Positions 35,976 through 46,659 of a DNA stretch of 64,000 nt are shown in pieces. The notes beneath the pieces were generated by a model that worked only from the letters and a program-made list of their open reading frames with translations, was not told the origin of the DNA and ran no database searches. Location of the stretch: NCBI GenBank assembly GCA_947259985.1, contig CAMYOJ010000019.1:62001-126000 (forward strand). The letters run 5' to 3'. The translations under genes and the position numbers were made by a program. Numbering within the stretch: position 1 is the stretch's first letter; every line of letters starts with the position of its first letter. The stretch is from an uncultured Woeseiaceae bacterium (lineage in GTDB: Bacteria > Pseudomonadota > Gammaproteobacteria > Steroidobacterales > Woeseiaceae).

Positions 35976-37745
35976 CTAGCGCCAGCGGTACTTGAGTTCG
36001 ACGAAGCCGCTGCGCTCCTGCATGAGGTAGTCGGCGGCGGTCTGGTAGTTGGTGTCGAACAGGTTCTCGATACGAGTATTGAGTTGCCACTGTTCGCCGA
36101 GTTGAATCTGTGCCGTCAGGTTGGTCACCACGTAGCCCGCAAGCCTGACTCCGCCGAAGTCCTCGCGATCGCCGCTCGCGAGTACCGCGATACCGAGCCG
36201 ATGCTGGCCAATATTCTGCGTAAAAGTGATTGTCGCTGACTCCTCTGCACGTCGCAGCAGGCGGCTGCCCGTCAGCGCATTTTCCGCCGACTGCTTCACG
36301 AAGTCTGCTCGCACCGCGAAACTTTCGCGGCGATACTCGTAGCCGAGTTGCGCGCCGCGAATCTCTGCCTCCTCGATGTTTCGCAGCGTAAACGTCTGCA
36401 GGTCGAATTCGATCAGGTTATCAATGTCGTTTGCGTACAGCTCGAAATCGACACTGTGATGGCCGCCTGGCGCATAGTGCAGACCGAGTTGGGCTTCGTC
36501 CGCGGTTTCCGGTTCGAGGTCAGGGTTGCCGCTAAAACCGAAGCGGTCCGTGGCGTCTGGTGCGCGAAACGCATGACCAAGACCGGCCCTGATCGTCCAT
36601 GCGTCGCTAAGCTCGAACGCATACTCCGCATTCCAGGTCGTATGATTGCCGAACGCATCGTGATCAGTCAGGCGAACGGCGGCAAACGCCTTGTGCCTGC
36701 CGATGGCGATCTGGTCCTGGACAAACACAGCGCGCACGTCCGTGTCTTCATCGAAGCCCGAGCCGAAGGAAAGTGACGTTGCCTCCTCTGCAACGGCGTA
36801 CACGCCGCCCGATACCGTGTGTTGCTCGAAGGCGTGACTGTATTGCCAGTCGAGGCTGTAGCGCTCCGACTCGACGAAGTCCGGCGATTGTTGCTGCTTG
36901 ACCTCGTCCTGCACGAAAGACAGGACGAGTTTACTGGTGCCGGCATCCGATACCCTCGTATCCAGCTCGACTGCGGTGACCGTGTTCTTGTAGTCCTGGT
37001 CCACCGGCGTCAGGAAGAAGTCGAGATACTCAACATTGCCTTCGGCGCGCCAGTGCCGCACGCTGAACTCGTGCTCGCCAAAGCGCCGAGACCCGTAAAC
37101 GTTGGCTGACAAGTTGTCGTAGCCTCGTTCAGTGTCCGAATCCACGCGCGGCGCATAGCCGTCGGTGTCCTGCCAATCCAGGTTGACGCCAAATTCGCCC
37201 GAGTCGCTTCGGTTGCCACCGGACAGCTGCCCGGATCGCGAGTCGAAGCTGCCGCGGCCGACACCGCCTTCGAAATAGCGCGCATCCGAGCGCCGCGTGA
37301 TGATATTGATCACGCCCCCGATCGCGTCAGTACCGAACAGCGCCGAGCGCGCTCCCTTGACGATTTCGACACGTTCTATGAGTTCGGGCGCGATGTTCTG
37401 CACGGCGGCGCCGCCGATCGTGCCCGGGTTCATGCGCACGCCATCGATCAGCACGAGCGTGTGATTGCTCTCGGTGCCGCGCAGGAACAGCGAAGTGGAT
37501 TGCCCGGGCCCGCCGCTGCGTCCGATGTCGATACCGGCTTCAAAACGCAGCAGCTCGGAGAGATCGGTGGCCAGGGAAAGTTCGATCTCTTCGCGCGTGA
37601 TCACCGTGACGGGAACCGTTGCATCGCGAAGCGGAATTTCGGTACGTGTCGCCGTCACTATGATCGTGTCGCCCGAAGTAATGTCGGCCGCATGCAGCAG
37701 GCCCGACACCAGTATTGCCGGCAAAATGATGACGGAAATTTTCAC
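35976..37745 (-). CDS. btuB: TonB-dependent vitamin B12 receptor BtuB
   Basis: An outer-membrane receptor of about 589 residues: signal peptide (VIILPAILVSGLLHA), TonB box-like DTIIVTATRTE, plug domain (PLRDATVPVTVITREEIE, LLRFEAGIDIGRSGGPGQ, SLFLRGTESNHTLVLIDGVRMN), and a 22-strand type barrel ending NLFDTNYQTAADYLMQERSGFVELKYRW. The GTG at 37745, preceded by AAGGA at good spacing, is favoured over the ATG at 37775, which would put polar residues before the signal peptide. A cobalamin riboswitch directly upstream confirms the substrate class. TonB energy may come from the TonB-like protein at 21 kb. Confidence 0.95.
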   Translation of the reverse strand: MKISVIILPAILVSGLLHAADITSGDTIIVTATRTEIPLRDATVPVTVITREEIELSLATDLSELLRFEAGIDIGRSGGPGQSTSLFLRGTESNHTLVLIDGVRMNPGTIGGAAVQNIAPELIERVEIVKGARSALFGTDAIGGVINIITRRSDARYFEGGVGRGSFDSRSGQLSGGNRSDSGEFGVNLDWQDTDGYAPRVDSDTERGYDNLSANVYGSRRFGEHEFSVRHWRAEGNVEYLDFFLTPVDQDYKNTVTAVELDTRVSDAGTSKLVLSFVQDEVKQQQSPDFVESERYSLDWQYSHAFEQHTVSGGVYAVAEEATSLSFGSGFDEDTDVRAVFVQDQIAIGRHKAFAAVRLTDHDAFGNHTTWNAEYAFELSDAWTIRAGLGHAFRAPDATDRFGFSGNPDLEPETADEAQLGLHYAPGGHHSVDFELYANDIDNLIEFDLQTFTLRNIEEAEIRGAQLGYEYRRESFAVRADFVKQSAENALTGSRLLRRAEESATITFTQNIGQHRLGIAVLASGDREDFGGVRLAGYVVTNLTAQIQLGEQWQLNTRIENLFDTNYQTAADYLMQERSGFVELKYRWR

Positions 37746-37789
37746 GTGTTGCGTCCTTTTGCATGCCGCCCGCACGCGTTTTTCTTAAG

Positions 37790-38008
37790 CAGCAGGCCGG
37801 TCTCCGGGCTGACGAGCGGACTTCTCCCGCCGTAGCGCCTTCCCGCGATACCACAGGCTTGCCTGAGGTTTCGCAGTGGCTCCGCGTCCGGGCGGACGCA
37901 GGGGCTACGGTTACACTCGATCACCGTTGCGGGGGCAGCGCCGGACTGGCACGAATCGTGCGACACCGGCTTCCCGTTCACCCGAAACACGCCATTTCGG
38001 GTTCACCT
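37790..38008 (-). ncRNA. Cobalamin riboswitch controlling btuB
   Basis: Read leftward, the leader shows the conserved blocks in order: GGGAAGCCGGTG with the GTGCCAGTCCGGC arm, the core GCTGCCCCCGCAACGGT, the B12-box segment GAGCCACTGCG, then GGGAAGGCG, and finally GTCAGCCCGGAGACCGGCC, which is able to pair as the terminal arm near the gene. Binding of adenosylcobalamin or a related corrinoid represses downstream expression in this class. It lies between a strong promoter (38021-38049) and the btuB ribosome-binding site. Confidence 0.95.
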
Positions 38009-38020
38009 GATGAATGGACG

Positions 38021-38049
38021 ACGATAGGCAGGTGCCGGCAGGCTGTCAA
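38021..38049 (-). promoter_or_regulatory. Sigma70 promoter of the btuB riboswitch leader
   Basis: On the minus strand TTGACA (38049-38044) and TATCGT (38026-38021) are separated by 17 bases. Transcription should start near 38014, just before the riboswitch. Confidence 0.85.
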
Positions 38050-42040: not shown

Positions 42041-42832
42041 CTACTCGGGCTTGCGGAATCGCATCACGAAACGATCGGTCTTGCCGCGCAGCTCGGGGTC
42101 GAACACGATCCTGGCGAGATCGTCGTCAGGATTACGCAACAGGTCACTTTGCTCCTCGAGCACAAAACCGGCGGCTTCCATGCCCGCAATGACGATGGCC
42201 GGATCGATACGATGCAGGGAATTTCCGGTCTCGGCGGGAGCGCCGGCTTCGGCATAGTGATCGATGACGCCCACGATGCCGCCCGGCTTGAGGCCTTTAT
42301 GAAATTCTGCGAGCAACGCCGGCACATCGATCAATGGCCAGCCATTTTCGGCATCGTCGATGACGAGGTCGTGGTAGGACAGCACCATCATGATCGCGTC
42401 AAGAGAGCCAGCCGCAAGCGAAAGCTCGTTATTCTCGGCCATGAGTATTTCCACGTTCGGCAGGCGGTTGTTTTCATACCGGGCATTGAACTCGTCGCCG
42501 ACGAATTTCAGGTAAGCCTCGTTCGAATGCGCGACTACCTTGCCGCCGGTACCGACGACCGACGCCAGGATCTCGGTGTAGTAGCCGCCGCCCGAGAACA
42601 TATCGAGTACGGTCATGCCTTCGGTAATGCCCAGGAACTCGAGGACCTCGGCCGGCTTGCGACCCGCGTCCCTGGCGCGATCCTTCTCCGGCCGCGCGTC
42701 GTTAGCGACAGCGGCCGCGAAAACTGATAGTGGTTGCGGCTCCGTTGCGAGCTCAGTCGCCTGGTTTTCGTCGCTCGGCTGCCCGCAGGCCGCAAGAGTA
42801 GCTGCAGTGAGCAGCACGCTTAGTTTTCGCAT
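42041..42832 (-). CDS. Class I SAM methyltransferase-like lipoprotein
   Basis: A 263-residue protein with a lipoprotein signal (LSVLLTAATLAACG, Cys16) followed by a methyltransferase fold: motif I VLDMFSGGGYYTEILASVVG, motif II-like VEILMAENNELSL, and LKPGGIVGVIDHYAEAG. An exported protein has no obvious supply of S-adenosylmethionine, so activity outside the cytoplasm is puzzling; the fold may bind another ligand. Similar lipoprotein 'methyltransferases' occur in other proteobacteria. The ATG at 42832 sets the lipobox at the correct distance. Confidence 0.85.
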   Translation of the reverse strand: MRKLSVLLTAATLAACGQPSDENQATELATEPQPLSVFAAAVANDARPEKDRARDAGRKPAEVLEFLGITEGMTVLDMFSGGGYYTEILASVVGTGGKVVAHSNEAYLKFVGDEFNARYENNRLPNVEILMAENNELSLAAGSLDAIMMVLSYHDLVIDDAENGWPLIDVPALLAEFHKGLKPGGIVGVIDHYAEAGAPAETGNSLHRIDPAIVIAGMEAAGFVLEEQSDLLRNPDDDLARIVFDPELRGKTDRFVMRFRKPE

Positions 42833-42899: not shown

Positions 42900-42928
42900 A
42901 AAGAAAAAGCCCCGCTGTGTGGCGGGGC
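42900..42928 (-). terminator. Strong intrinsic terminator of the predicted small RNA
   Basis: On the minus strand GCCCCGC-cacaca-GCGGGGC is followed by TTTTTCTTT. It lies upstream of the methyltransferase gene, so it does not end a protein-coding unit but fits the 3' end of the small RNA. Confidence 0.88.
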
Positions 42929-43100
42929 CAAATTCTCTTTTTTATCAAAAGAGGTAACTGCGAATTCGGTAATCGGTGACGAAATGTTTTTTTATTGTTA
43001 TTGGATCTTGATCTTGTTGTTTTTGTAGTTATTTTTCTTCTGGCGTCTAAATCCTGTGTCGTACCGTTTAATTACCGTGCAGCTACACTTCGCTTGGGCA
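42900..43100 (-). ncRNA. Predicted sigma54-dependent small RNA, CrcZ-like Hfq decoy candidate
   Basis: The stretch 42833-43399 holds no convincing gene. On its minus strand a sigma54 promoter (43110-43127) predicts a start near 43100 and an intrinsic terminator ends at about 42900, giving an RNA of about 200 bases. It contains an A-rich single-stranded-looking section with AACAACAA (43021-43014) and AATAACAA (43002-42995), matching the AAYAAYAA motif of Pseudomonas CrcZ/CrcY RNAs that titrate Hfq/Crc. A 7-bp hairpin CTCTTTT/AAAAGAG (42935-42953) precedes the terminator. The elements are seen; expression and function are inferred. Confidence 0.6.
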
Positions 43101-43109
43101 GAGTATTAA

Positions 43110-43127
43110 AAGCAAGACCTGTGCCAA
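43110..43127 (-). promoter_or_regulatory. Sigma54 (-24/-12) promoter
   Basis: On the minus strand TTGGCAC-AGGTC-TTGCTT matches the RpoN consensus YTGGCACG-N4-TTGCW, with GG and GC dinucleotides separated by the required ten bases. The predicted start is near 43100. Upstream repeats (43188-43202 and 43225-43235) could bind an activator. Confidence 0.85.
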
Positions 43128-43187
43128 CCATGCCCGGCGCGGCGTGAATTCAGGGTTTTAGCGATTGCTCAATCTTGTAAGCCGCCC

Positions 43188-43224: not shown

Positions 43225-43420
43225 GTGGGTAAAACATAATGCCGAGAGCTAAGTGCATGAGGCAAGCCTCTGATAGTTATAGAAAAAGGGAACGGGCAAA
43301 CGCATTGATGCGCAATATGGTCGAGGAAGCACGCATCAGATTATGTTTAATTTGCGTCAGGCGGTCGATTCAAGGCCGATATTCGACTGTTTTGTCAAAT
43401 TATTCGACAGTTTTACCCAC
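43225..43420. repeat. Distant inverted repeat GTGGGTAAAAC ... GTTTTACCCAC
   Basis: An 11-bp perfect inverted repeat with arms at 43225-43235 and 43410-43420, the latter at the end of the propeller-amidohydrolase gene. Between them, ATTCGACTGTTTT (43381) and ATTCGACAGTTTT (43402) form a direct repeat spaced by 21 bases, two helical turns. These may be sites for a regulator of the sigma54 promoter; that is inference. Confidence 0.45.
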
Positions 43421-45130
43421 TTTGGCGCGATCGATGAGTCCCGCCGCACTGAAAAATCGCCCGTTACGGACCACGGCAACGATTCTCGCGGCATCGCTGA
43501 TCTCGACAAGCGGATCGCCGTCGACGAAAACGAGATCCGCGACAGCGCCGACGGCGATGCGTCCCAGGAACGGATCGACGCCCAGCGCGGCGGCCGCGTT
43601 AACACCGGCTGCGCGCAATGCCTGGACGGGTTTGAGACCAGCCGCGGTCAGTGCCAGCAACTCGGCTTGCAACGCAAGGCCGGGTCGCAGCCCGTTGCCG
43701 CGGCTCGCAAGCACCATCGAGGTCATGCCGACCGCGATGCTCGGTTGTTCTGCAAAGCGCCGCGGTATCGATGCCGGCACGCCGATCAGGCCCGCTTGCC
43801 TCGATTGCAGCAGGCCGGGCAGGCCCGGCGTCATCGAATCGGCCATCGCGCCAGACTCTTCGCTTAGTTGTCCGTTATCAGCCAATACCCTGGGCCCAGG
43901 CAGTTCCTTGCTCGACCACAGCGTATTGAGGCGCTCGGCCTCAGGGCTGTCGGCGACCAGGGTAGTGACGCCCGTCGTCAGCAATAAGGGACCGAAATTC
44001 TCGTCGACGGCATTGTCGAGATCGGCTCTTGCATCGACATAACCGGGCATGACGACCAGGTCGCCCATGTCGATTACGAGCTCGCCAGGGCGTTCGCGGT
44101 GCGCTTCGACGGCCGTAATTCGTCCGCCATCTATGACAATGTCGCGGGCTGGCTGGTAAGCGCTACCCAGGCCGTCGTACAGACGCCCGGCATGAATGAT
44201 CAGGCGGCCTGGCGGCTCGTCGATGCGAGGCAAGGCGCGCCGTTCGTTATTGACAGGGGCAACTCTCGCCGGTGCCTCGAGTCTGGCGCGAAACAAGAGC
44301 GGAGACGATGACCACGAATTGAACAGGCGCTGGCGGATGCGCCCGTCGACGGCATAAATCATCGCGTGCCGATCGAGCCAGCTCACCGGAGCTTCTTCGA
44401 AGTCTTCGTTGTCCGCATAGGTCCTGACGAGTCGCGGCTCGGACAGGATCACCATTTCTATCGACGTCGCGGTACCGATGTCACGCAGGTAGGTGACAAG
44501 GCTGCCGTCGGGTCGCCAGGCGGGCGCACTAAGCCGGTCCGTTGTCGATACGAGCGTTTCGTCGGGCTGCCCCCGACGTCGTAGGACCAGCGACCAGCGC
44601 TCCTCTTCGTGATGCACAAAAACGAGATCGCGGCCGTCGGCCGACCAGGCAGGTTCGGTCTCGTCGCCAGGACGATGCGTAAGCCGCCAGTGCAAGCCCG
44701 TGGGCAGGTCCGTTTCCCAAAGGTCGAATCCGTGGCCCGTCTTGTCGCGCGCGTAGACGATGCGCTCCTGATCCGGGTGCCATGCGGGTTGCATGTCGAA
44801 AGAGCCGTCCGAGCTGAGTTTTCGGGCCCGCTGTGCGGCGAGATCATAAACCCAGATGCTGTGCGCGCCATCGGCGTTTGAATGGAATGCGATTTGCAGC
44901 GCGTCGGGCGACCATTTTGGTCGCGATGCCTTCGGCCCGCCGTTCGTTGCTCTGCTTGCTTCGCCTCCGCTGCGCGGCACGATCCAGATATCGCCAACCA
45001 GGCTGATCGCCACGCGTCCGTCGGCCGCGATATCGACGGAAAGGTTCTTACCGCGCGTGACGGTTTCCTGCGCGCTCGAGTTCAATGCGGGGAGCAGTAA
45101 GAGCGCTGCGACTATCGTGGCGCGGAACAT
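43400..45130 (-). CDS. Exported beta-propeller protein fused to a degenerate amidohydrolase domain
   Basis: A 576-residue exported protein (signal VAALLLLPALNSSA). Residues about 25-290 form TolB/WD40-like propeller repeats (PKWSPDALQIAFHS, PAWHPDQERIVYA, PAWSADGRDLVFV, PAWRPDGSLVTYL). A C-terminal amidohydrolase-like part follows (IIHAGRLYDGLG, DMGDLVVMPGYVDARADLD near residue 366, and VGAVADLVFVDGDPL). The usual HxH metal motif after 'PGxxD' is replaced by ARAD and the barrel is short, so catalytic activity is doubtful. The ATG at 45130 lies two bases after the GGT gene stop; a TTG at 45136 is an alternative start. Confidence 0.85.
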   Translation of the reverse strand: MFRATIVAALLLLPALNSSAQETVTRGKNLSVDIAADGRVAISLVGDIWIVPRSGGEASRATNGGPKASRPKWSPDALQIAFHSNADGAHSIWVYDLAAQRARKLSSDGSFDMQPAWHPDQERIVYARDKTGHGFDLWETDLPTGLHWRLTHRPGDETEPAWSADGRDLVFVHHEEERWSLVLRRRGQPDETLVSTTDRLSAPAWRPDGSLVTYLRDIGTATSIEMVILSEPRLVRTYADNEDFEEAPVSWLDRHAMIYAVDGRIRQRLFNSWSSSPLLFRARLEAPARVAPVNNERRALPRIDEPPGRLIIHAGRLYDGLGSAYQPARDIVIDGGRITAVEAHRERPGELVIDMGDLVVMPGYVDARADLDNAVDENFGPLLLTTGVTTLVADSPEAERLNTLWSSKELPGPRVLADNGQLSEESGAMADSMTPGLPGLLQSRQAGLIGVPASIPRRFAEQPSIAVGMTSMVLASRGNGLRPGLALQAELLALTAAGLKPVQALRAAGVNAAAALGVDPFLGRIAVGAVADLVFVDGDPLVEISDAARIVAVVRNGRFFSAAGLIDRAKVGKTVE

Positions 45131-45132
45131 GT

Positions 45133-46659
45133 TCAAGGCTGGCTTACGTACACTCCGCCCTCGCGCCGCGGATCTGCCGCCGCGTCGAGACCCGTCGTGC
45201 TGTCACAAAGGGCCGTGCCAACGCCGCCGAAGTACATGACGATTTTCGGGAATACAGTGACCGGCAAATCGGTTGCGGGCAGGTCGAGACCCGTCTCCGC
45301 CATGAGCCGAATCTCCTCGCCGCTCGTATCGACGTGCACGCGAGGGTGCGAAATGGCGTCCCTGAGCGGCATCTCGAGTTGCAGGTAGTTGATAAGGAAT
45401 TGTTGCAGGGCCGTCGTGATCCTGTCCGCGCCGGGGGAGCCGACCGCCAGTACGGCGCCGGGTTTACGTGCGACGCTGGGCGCCATGTTGGACGGCAGCC
45501 GCGAGCCGGGCGGCCCGGCATCGAGTCCGCGTCGGTTGAGTTCGATTTCGCCCAGGCAGTTGTTCAGCCACAGGCCCGTGCCCGGAGGCATCTCGCCGGA
45601 GCCGTAACCCGACGATGCCGTCATCGCGCAGCCGGTCCCTTCGTTGTCAACGACGGAGGTATGCACAGTGGACGCGGAAGTCCAGCGCGACAGCAGTTGG
45701 CCACTCCGGGCCGATTCCACGAGGTGCGCTGCTTCAGCCGAAACGTCGTCGGCAAAGTCGAGGTTGCGGCGCCGGAAATCGAGGCAGGCACGCTGAGCCG
45801 CGATGAGCTGCGTCAACGCCGCTTCGGTCCACCGTTGATCGGGAAGGTCGGCGCATGCCAGCAGCATCGCCGTGAGCACGCTGCCGCCGACGGCTGGTGG
45901 CGGGTTGCTCGCCAGGTGCCAGTCGCCGATATCCGCTCGCAGCGAGGGTCGTTCAACGGCCCGGTAGCTGCTGAGATCCTCTGCCGTCAGCATGCCGTTT
46001 CCGTCGCGGCAGTGATTCGATATGGCCGCGGCGATCTCGCCTTCGTAAAAAACGCGTGCCCCATTGCGGGCAATGGCGTCGAGGCTGTCGGCAAGATGCG
46101 GCACGATCACGCGATTGCCGGCGTCGAGCAGCGTGCCGTCGGCGTGATGCAGCGCGTCGAAACCGTCCTTCGAGCGATCGAAAACAACCTTGCTCGAATA
46201 GCCCAGGTAGTACCGGCAGGCCGCCGAGAGCGAAAATCCTTCACGACAGGCGCGAATCGTCGGTTCGAAGATGAGATTCCAGGGGATGCTGCCGAACTTC
46301 TTCCAGGCAAGCTCCATGGCTGCCAGCGTGCCAGGGACGGCTACCGAGCCCGGGCCGACGAGTGTCCTGATGCCACCGCCGTAATTCATCGTGACTTCGA
46401 CGGCACCCTGCCGGCGCTGATCTTCGCTGAGACCGGCACCCGGTACCGCCACGTTGCCGTCAATCGTTACCGGTTCGTCGTCCGCCGGCCATATCGTGAT
46501 GAACGCGCTGCCGCCCAGCGCGCACACGCCCGGCTCGGTATTGATCGTCAGCAATGCGGCGGCCAGCGCGCAATCGACCGCATTGCCGCCCGCGGCCGCG
46601 ACGTCACGCGCTGCGTCCGCGGCGAGCTGCGAGGTGGTGGCAACAGCGATCTGGGTCAT
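45133..46659 (-). CDS. Gamma-glutamyltransferase-like Ntn hydrolase
   Basis: A 508-residue member of the gamma-glutamyltranspeptidase family, self-cleaved before a threonine. Family features: AAAGGNAVDCALAAALL, EPGVCALGGSAFITIW, GPGSVAVPGTLAAM, then the cleavage site ASTVHTSVVD with nucleophile Thr331, followed by GYGSGEMPPGTGLWLNN and the SNMAPSV and GSPGADRI segments. The second Thr of the common TTH is Val. No signal peptide is seen, unlike periplasmic GGT, so a cytosolic relative with a different amide or glutathione-conjugate substrate is possible. Confidence 0.88.
   Translation of the reverse strand: MTQIAVATTSQLAADAARDVAAAGGNAVDCALAAALLTINTEPGVCALGGSAFITIWPADDEPVTIDGNVAVPGAGLSEDQRRQGAVEVTMNYGGGIRTLVGPGSVAVPGTLAAMELAWKKFGSIPWNLIFEPTIRACREGFSLSAACRYYLGYSSKVVFDRSKDGFDALHHADGTLLDAGNRVIVPHLADSLDAIARNGARVFYEGEIAAAISNHCRDGNGMLTAEDLSSYRAVERPSLRADIGDWHLASNPPPAVGGSVLTAMLLACADLPDQRWTEAALTQLIAAQRACLDFRRRNLDFADDVSAEAAHLVESARSGQLLSRWTSASTVHTSVVDNEGTGCAMTASSGYGSGEMPPGTGLWLNNCLGEIELNRRGLDAGPPGSRLPSNMAPSVARKPGAVLAVGSPGADRITTALQQFLINYLQLEMPLRDAISHPRVHVDTSGEEIRLMAETGLDLPATDLPVTVFPKIVMYFGGVGTALCDSTTGLDAAADPRREGGVYVSQP

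Follow-up and report, generated by a model that had tools for sequence, protein, structure and literature searches.

Is the gene-free stretch between two minus-strand genes of a Woeseiaceae genome transcribed into a small regulatory RNA (sRNA), and to which regulatory system would such an RNA belong? The family is common in marine sediments, and in our literature search nothing was found that joins Woeseia with Hfq or with small regulatory RNA. The question was raised by a preliminary description of the window, by which we mean the whole 64-kb stretch of DNA that was analysed. It had proposed an undescribed sRNA that is made from a sigma54 (RpoN) promoter, carries Hfq-binding motifs of the kind found in the Pseudomonas RNAs CrcZ and CrcY, and is either analogous or distantly homologous to them.

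The comparisons given below show that the element is real and conserved, a new predicted sRNA family of Woeseiaceae and of the sigma54/Hfq kind. Concerning its role, the reading that we prefer, with a probability of about 0.6, is that of a trans-acting sRNA that would act through Hfq and would belong, as a non-coding element, to the PrsR-RpoN (PEP-CTERM, exosortase) regulon of the family. This assignment is drawn from sequence comparison.

The locus and its elements

The motif TGGCAC-N5-TTGCW has a single exact match in the 64 kb, at 43126-43111 on the minus strand, where 0.06 are expected and 6 of 100 shuffles reach one. With two mismatches allowed, the sigma54 motif occurs 35 times compared to 29.3 by chance, that is, with no excess, and the terminator scan alone returned 5 terminators in 6 kb against 5.2 expected, again no excess over chance. 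Since the relaxed promoter scan and the terminator scan are both at chance level, conservation had to decide whether the element is real. The weakness of these single-sequence scans by themselves is what one would expect of a functionless chance assembly of motifs, a reading to which the conservation, the covariation and the fixed promoter geometry reported below leave a negligible probability.

The locus is flanked by a PD40/amidohydrolase gene (43400-45136, minus strand), whose stop precedes it, and by a PCMT-like methyltransferase gene (42041-42832, minus strand), whose start follows it, and the stretch between them is indeed intergenic, as had been claimed. The preliminary description was also right about the promoter with its perfect spacing, the terminator facing it on the same strand, the two AAYAAYAA motifs between them and the hairpin just before the terminator, all of which are present where it had placed them. 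The elements are, in the direction of transcription:

43393-43409, minus strand: UAS2, the distal upstream activating sequence, TGTC-N9-GACA, which overlaps the upstream gene at its stop codon
43203-43219, minus strand: UAS1, the proximal upstream activating sequence, 17 nt ending in TTTACA, fitting PEP-CTERM box motif 1
43147-43161, minus strand: IHF-like site between UAS1 and the promoter, weak in the window's genome (2 mismatches, counted by hand)
43111-43127, minus strand: sigma54 -24/-12 promoter, TTGGCAC-N5-TTGCT, assigned by motif match and conservation
42904-43100, minus strand: predicted sRNA of ~197 nt, its 5' end at ~43100 placed from the -12 box
43088-43100, minus strand: 5' tail UGCCCAAGCGAAG, mean unpaired probability 0.68
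43079-43086, minus strand: 5' strand of helix P1, pairing with 42961-42954
43071-43077, minus strand: 5' strand of helix P2, pairing with 42973-42967
43035-43054, minus strand: core block GGAUUUAGACGCCAGAAGAA, within which GGAUUU pairs with AGAUCC at 43008-43003
43013-43039, minus strand: tract of A-A-N triplets and predicted site for the distal face of Hfq; the pattern holds in 8 of 9 triplets, and UAC interrupts the run
43021-43014, minus strand: AAYAAYAA motif AACAACAA
42992-43002, minus strand: second, shorter A-A-N tract AAUAACAAUAA, assigned by sequence pattern
43002-42995, minus strand: AAYAAYAA motif AATAACAA
42967-42973, minus strand: 3' strand of helix P2, from the covariation alignment
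42954-42961, minus strand: 3' strand of helix P1, from the covariation alignment
42935-42953, minus strand: pre-terminator hairpin CUCUUUU...AAAAGAG
42900-42928, minus strand: intrinsic terminator with U tract, the U run being present in 76 of the 76 distinct loci long enough

At the locus, all Rfam matches stay below the gathering score of their family, which bears out the description of the sRNA as new; the best match, anti-hemB, has 25.1 bits (gathering score 49.5) and covers the terminator region only. Elsewhere in the window, a cobalamin riboswitch (Rfam RF00174, 85.3 bits) is found at 37778-38025 on the minus strand. Directly 3' of it lies a 599-aa gene (35976-37775, minus strand) that looks, by eye, like one for a BtuB-type TonB receptor.

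Conservation and distribution

A promoter-to-terminator conservation search in relatives had been proposed in the preliminary description as a check, and the unit is kept across Woeseiaceae. Of 60 genomes searched by BLAST with a 251-base query, 29 have the region. Apart from that of the window, these are 28 of the 36 other genomes of the same genus; none of the 23 genomes from other families of the order has it. The aligned loci keep their register from the promoter through the terminator. The core block GGAUUUAGACGCCAGAAGAA is present in 28 of the 30 loci found by BLAST, a count free of selection for the block; of the remaining two, one has a deletion and one runs into a contig end. When 84,980 species genomes were scanned for this 20-nt block, 81 stretches came up, 77 of which are the same gene. 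The other four, in two Sporosarcina, an Izemoplasmatales and a Nitrospira, are chance matches without the promoter and the 5' block. Among the 76 core-block matches listed with taxon labels, 34 are labelled Woeseia or Woeseiaceae, the others only Gammaproteobacteria, Proteobacteria or Chromatiales; the family counted below is taken to be Woeseiaceae on the strength of these labels.

A covariance model (R1) was built on 75 distinct transcripts, whose pairwise identity ranges from 67% to 98.5% with a median of 78%. In 246 genomes of the order it matched 52 of 65 Woeseiaceae, with one copy each, and 0 of 181 genomes of other families, where the figure of 65 assumes that no family member is among the 174 misses ranked after all listed same-genus and same-family misses. 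In G099, the orthologue is at 766209-766406 on the minus strand of contig 1. The model has no match in 13 of the 65 family genomes, 7 of which are at least 90% complete, and several of the family genomes without a match are small (1.3-2.0 Mb). Applied to 369 genomes of the class, it returned two Woeseiaceae genomes and one spurious terminator. Spread beyond the family was considered as well and rejected, since this spurious match, in a genome of another family (G484, 31.9 bits), has neither promoter nor core blocks.

It should be pointed out that each row of the 75-row alignment was chosen for the core key and GCCCAAGCG, so that the invariance of both in it reflects selection. Two loci at contig ends (L007 and L046), one that is too short (L069), two without the core key (L029 and L030) and exact duplicates were left out. 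The segment GCCCAAGCGAA in the 5' tail is found in 77 of 78 distinct loci, the exception (L109) having been kept out of the alignment.

On the upstream side, the neighbour is the amidohydrolase gene in each of the 28 oriented loci. The downstream gene varies: it is methyltransferase-like in 12 loci, directly an amidase in ~6 and of another family in ~7. Both neighbours are on the strand of the sRNA, and one could therefore think of a cis element that serves the downstream genes as leader or attenuator, or that comes from the 3' UTR of the amidohydrolase gene, for which the constant upstream linkage would speak. However, the downstream gene changes while promoter and terminator stay, and the position of UAS2 on the stop codon of the upstream gene can explain why this neighbour is constant despite the changing downstream gene. 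We consider the cis reading very unlikely. As a separate observation, the downstream gene differs across L001-L029 while the sRNA stays, which marks the terminator as a point of gene turnover.

RNA fold and coding test

The RNA of the window folds with an energy of −49.7 kcal mol−1 and a z-score of −5.46, and none of 200 shuffles is equally stable. In the alignment, standard pairs account for 93.6% of the cells, and two-sided changes are seen in 16 of 44 pairs. The observed values for cells paired, two-sided cells and covariation score are reached by 0 of 500 shuffles each, that for pairs with two-sided change by 2 of 500 and that for pair types by 1 of 500. When the alignment is slid as a control, the paired cells drop to 34-50%. 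For helix P1, 97.7% of the cells are paired and 3 of 8 pairs are changed on both sides. The long-range helix P2 has two-sided changes in 7 of 7 pairs, yet it is the least kept (83.4% of cells paired). Run unaided, RNAalifold gives P1, P4 and the terminator together with a small competing hairpin in the P2 3' region, and it predicts neither P2 nor the pre-terminator hairpin.

Over the family, the mean unpaired probability is 0.93 for the A-A-N tract, 0.85 for the second tract and 0.68 for the 5' tail. We have also considered a coding role. No conserved open reading frame was found, and the A-A-N frame extends to an upstream ATG, GTG or TTG in no more than 3 of the 75 RNAs. In 59 of 75, a frame of at least 8 aa starts from a CTG or TTG in P1, but these frames vary from row to row in length and sequence, and the coding reading was rejected.

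Promoter and enhancers

The -24/-12 site is present in 78 of 78 distinct loci, as TGGCAC in 63 and as TGGCAT in 15. UAS1, a 17-mer of the form YGTCG...TTTACA, was found in 71 of 75 scored loci, 69 of which have it 91-93 nt before TGGCA; in the window it lies ~93 nt before the -24 box, with a spacer of ~75 nt to the sigma54 motif. UAS2 (TGTCGAATAATTTGACA and variants) is located 260-310 nt upstream in 62 of the 75 scored loci and 207-241 nt upstream in six more, and the two sequences are both in their main distance ranges in 58 loci. The IHF-like site has a fixed place, with at most one mismatch to the IHF consensus in 59 of 77 loci compared to 7.4% of mononucleotide shuffles.

The arrangement resembles the PEP-CTERM box. 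According to Haft et al. 2006 (PMC1569441), motif 1 of this box is 17 nt long, ends in TTTACA and is sometimes repeated; it is followed after 32-92 nt by a sigma54 motif 2 and then by PEP-CTERM genes, in Proteobacteria. UAS1 and its spacer fit this published definition (with UAS1 in 71 of 75 loci). The likeness to the PrsK/PrsR/PrsT regulon thus consists of a motif 1 ending in TTTACA, the ~75-nt spacer and the sigma54 motif 2 (PMC1569441), with the difference that the product here is an RNA and not a PEP-CTERM protein.

A promoter module shared with PEP-CTERM and PagP-like genes

A search of seven family genomes for the UAS pattern gave 109 occurrences, of which 12 are the sRNA's own sites; the 97 others were all examined. 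A sigma54-like box lies 40-112 nt past the UAS at 13 of the 97, compared to 0, 1, 1 and 2 in four control windows; the count underlying these 13 modules is 14, including one of the sRNA's own. Nine of the 13 modules precede genes with a PEP-CTERM signal over the cut-off (PF07589; L156 and L347-L354), in four of the seven genomes (G023, G015, G030 and G099). PagP-like genes that pass their cut-off (PF07017) follow three modules, namely L138 in G027, L285 in G023 and L147 in the window's own genome, and the remaining module stands before a gene for a PLP-dependent enzyme (L160/L355). The UAS is also present at a tenth PEP-CTERM gene (L163), there without a good sigma54 box. In three of the seven genomes, the window's own (G000), G010 and G027, the exact UAS pattern led to no PEP-CTERM gene, and G010 encodes an XrtA/PEP-CTERM export protein (L151). 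In four family genomes without the sRNA, 0 of 17 sigma54-pattern matches come with a UAS or a PEP-CTERM gene, a weak result as most of these matches are intragenic.

The UAS in front of PagP-like genes suggests that lipid A palmitoylation could be part of the exosortase regulon in Woeseiaceae. A PagP-like gene with a PEP-CTERM box UAS is also found in a fourth genome (L342), where the spacing to the sigma54 box is larger.

The shared promoter modules, which would wire the sRNA to the exosortase regulon, are the strongest of the new results, while its mode of action is the weakest. For a PEP-CTERM gene of Aquincola, RpoN dependence has been demonstrated (PMC9850573). The sRNA reading of the preliminary description is supported; it had missed the enhancers and the promoter module shared with PEP-CTERM genes. 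This common module points to matrix or envelope control as the probable setting, rather than carbon catabolite control.

Candidate activators

We now consider which protein could act at the UAS. In the published account of the PEP-CTERM regulon, PrsR is proposed as the binder of motif 1 on the basis of a phylogenetic profile (PMC1569441). PrsR (TIGR02915, cut-off 502.6 bits) is encoded in G027 with 701.5 bits and in G099 with 717.7 bits. It is absent among the 9 strong activator-domain matches of the window's own genome, which is 82% complete and has 4 weak matches outside the scan. Among six proteins scanned near PrsR, there was no match to PrsK, PrsT or an exosortase.

In both G027 and G099, a GlrR-like sigma54 activator adjoins PrsR (619 and 634 bits, against a cut-off of 763), the two genes being convergent (L344:9289-12292 in G027, L345:16790-19625 in G099), and cross-talk between the PrsR and GlrR-like systems is possible. 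A further candidate is a PAS-domain sigma54 activator (L178:661-2457 and orthologues), which is found in 23 of 27 family genomes, also in genomes of 1.4-1.5 Mb with few other activator candidates. As the regulator of the sRNA it was rejected, being near-universal and retained where the sRNA is missing.

One may ask whether a GlrR-like or PAS-domain regulator takes the place of PrsR, in which case the likeness to the PEP-CTERM box would come from related binding sites. The published GlrR site, TGTC-N10-GACA (PMC4987338), is near to the TGTC-N9-GACA of UAS2, and GlrR-like proteins are encoded right beside PrsR. The PAS regulator is on the same contig as the sRNA in several genomes, and the missing PrsR of the window's genome would also fit. 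Against this stands the fact that the same 17-nt UAS, with matching spacing, precedes PEP-CTERM genes and ends in TTTACA like the published motif, and that the PAS regulator persists in family genomes that lack the sRNA. We regard activation by one of these other proteins as unlikely, and PrsR as the better candidate.

The Hfq pattern

Allowing overlapping matches, AAYAAYAA occurs on average 3.16 times per RNA compared to 0.07 times in dinucleotide shuffles, an enrichment of ~44-fold. At least two motifs are present in 68 of 75 RNAs, and the motifs fall in the two tracts. Alignment columns 70-96 read AAG AAN AAN AAN NAN AAN AAN AAN AAG. The first two positions of 8 of these 9 triplets are conserved in 95-100% of the rows, and the third letter is free or almost free in the five inner conserved triplets. 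In 62 of 75 rows there are 8 or 9 A-R-N triplets in register. An unbroken run of at least 6 A-R-N triplets is found in only 29 of 75 RNAs, compared to 1.9% of shuffles, because the triplet at columns 82-84 usually begins with U; the window's own RNA has this interruption. For comparison, the amiE site of P. aeruginosa in the Hfq/Crc structure is described as six such triplets (PMC6422490).

The genome of the window encodes both Hfq (102.6 bits) and RpoN. The distal-pocket residues of this Hfq look like those of E. coli. The A-A-N tract has the pattern preferred by the distal face of Hfq, and the loop looks built to hold the protein.

Relation to CrcZ and other sigma54-dependent sRNAs

The likeness to CrcZ and CrcY of Pseudomonas and Azotobacter consists of the sequence features of a sigma54 promoter with an IHF-like site and enhancers, of A-R-N tracts and of an own terminator, and we take it as an analogy. 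CrcZ is described as combining sigma54, IHF, a response regulator and A-rich Hfq sites (PMC8395346, PMC8871633), with IHF being used at crcZ (PMC8395346). Homology was rejected, the CrcZ model RF01675 giving only a partial match of 8.1 bits against a gathering score of 95. Of the CrcZ link that had been proposed, the analogy is thus retained and the homology is not.

There are also differences. The RNA here has ~197 nt, while CrcZ has 407-426 nt and several A-rich tracts (PMC6422490, PMC8395346). The CbrB subsites at crcZ, TGTTAC, are non-palindromic (PMC6296734), and they differ from the UAS here. Neither is the setting of the CrcZ type: the neighbours are the amidohydrolase and methyltransferase or amidase genes and not cbrB, and no clear Crc was found. 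The nearest Crc relative, encoded in G027, reaches 319 bits with a solved exodeoxyribonuclease and 263 bits with Crc. It aligns unchanged at the CGDWNIAH-like and SDHAPL stretches, which we take to be catalytic in Crc relatives, and in its sequence it resembles an active nuclease.

Other sRNAs can be compared as well. GlmY and GlmZ of Enterobacteriaceae are sigma54-dependent sRNAs with TGTC...GACA enhancers (PMC4987338), where the site spacing is N10 compared to N9 in UAS2. Neither of the two is among the Rfam matches. The Qrr RNAs of Vibrio, controlled by LuxO, are RpoN-dependent trans-acting sRNAs tied to a response regulator, and are likened here by description. So is NrsZ of Pseudomonas, an RpoN-dependent trans-acting sRNA tied to a response regulator (PMC8395346) and controlled by NtrC. 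The locus presents a predicted layout of sigma54, enhancer, IHF, sRNA and Hfq outside the CbrAB setting of Pseudomonas.

Proposed mode of action

In the mechanism that we propose, PrsR would bind one or two of the 17-nt PEP-CTERM boxes and IHF would bend the DNA, as judged from the motifs. The sigma54 RNA polymerase would then make the ~200-nt RNA alongside the PEP-CTERM matrix proteins and the PagP-like lipid A enzyme. The second step has comparative support in the form of the conserved fold, in which the long-range stem would hold open the A-A-N loop ahead of the U-tract terminator. Next, the distal face of Hfq would presumably take up the A-A-N tract, and its proximal face the U tract. In the last and weakest step, the Hfq-bound RNA may alter the translation of other mRNAs while the matrix programme is on. 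The likelier route for this would be short base pairing through the invariant unpaired segments (the 5' GCCCAAGCGAAG and GACGCCAG), to which keeping Hfq off A-rich leaders, in the fashion of CrcZ, could be an addition.

The alternative to base pairing is a CrcZ-like decoy, in which the sRNA would mainly occupy the distal face of Hfq and thereby relieve the repression of mRNAs with A-rich leaders. The ~44-fold excess of AAYAAYAA, the openness of both A-A-N tracts in the fold, and the layout of sigma54 promoter, IHF-like site and enhancers as described for crcZ are all in line with it. Furthermore, an exact 11-nt complement of the 5' tail was found 46 times in 18 genomes, 15 of these being the sRNA gene itself, compared to 57 times for the reversed control. 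This lack of enrichment counts against base pairing and speaks for the decoy. However, the ~200 nt hold a single long tract, which as a rule has one interruption, and a single short one, and the decoy leaves the invariant non-A segments unexplained; the nuclease-like score of the nearest Crc relative is a further point against it. We lean slightly towards base pairing, because Hfq binding does not call for the strictly conserved positions outside the A-rich tract and because there would be room on the tracts for no more than one or two Hfq hexamers, and we consider a pure decoy doubtful.

A broader reading, which we put forward tentatively and hold at somewhat below even odds, is that the RNA forms a post-transcriptional arm of the exosortase/PEP-CTERM regulon. 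A Woeseiaceae-specific, PrsR/RpoN-driven Hfq RNA would re-route Hfq, with the result that metabolism would change over in step with matrix-protein export and lipid A palmitoylation. It would represent a convergent use of the CrcZ design, for surface life and not for the carbon source. In the papers considered in a non-exhaustive literature search (PMC1569441, PMC9850573), the exosortase regulon is described by protein genes, and the conserved RNA would be its first non-coding member. It would also offer a testable point of entry to the link between matrix export and the other functions of the cell.

Other sigma54 sites in the family

Finally, we have also considered PilR and FleQ as activators. 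Both were rejected, as the sites beside the pilin gene and the flagellar-type regulators differ in spacing or orientation. At three loci (L181, L179 and L183) the gene after a PilR-like regulator is pilin-like and has a sigma54 promoter of its own, both names being given by eye. In a family genome of 1.4 Mb (G198), an intergenic sigma54 site (L266) lies upstream of a gene whose product resembles, by its sequence, the urease accessory protein UreD.
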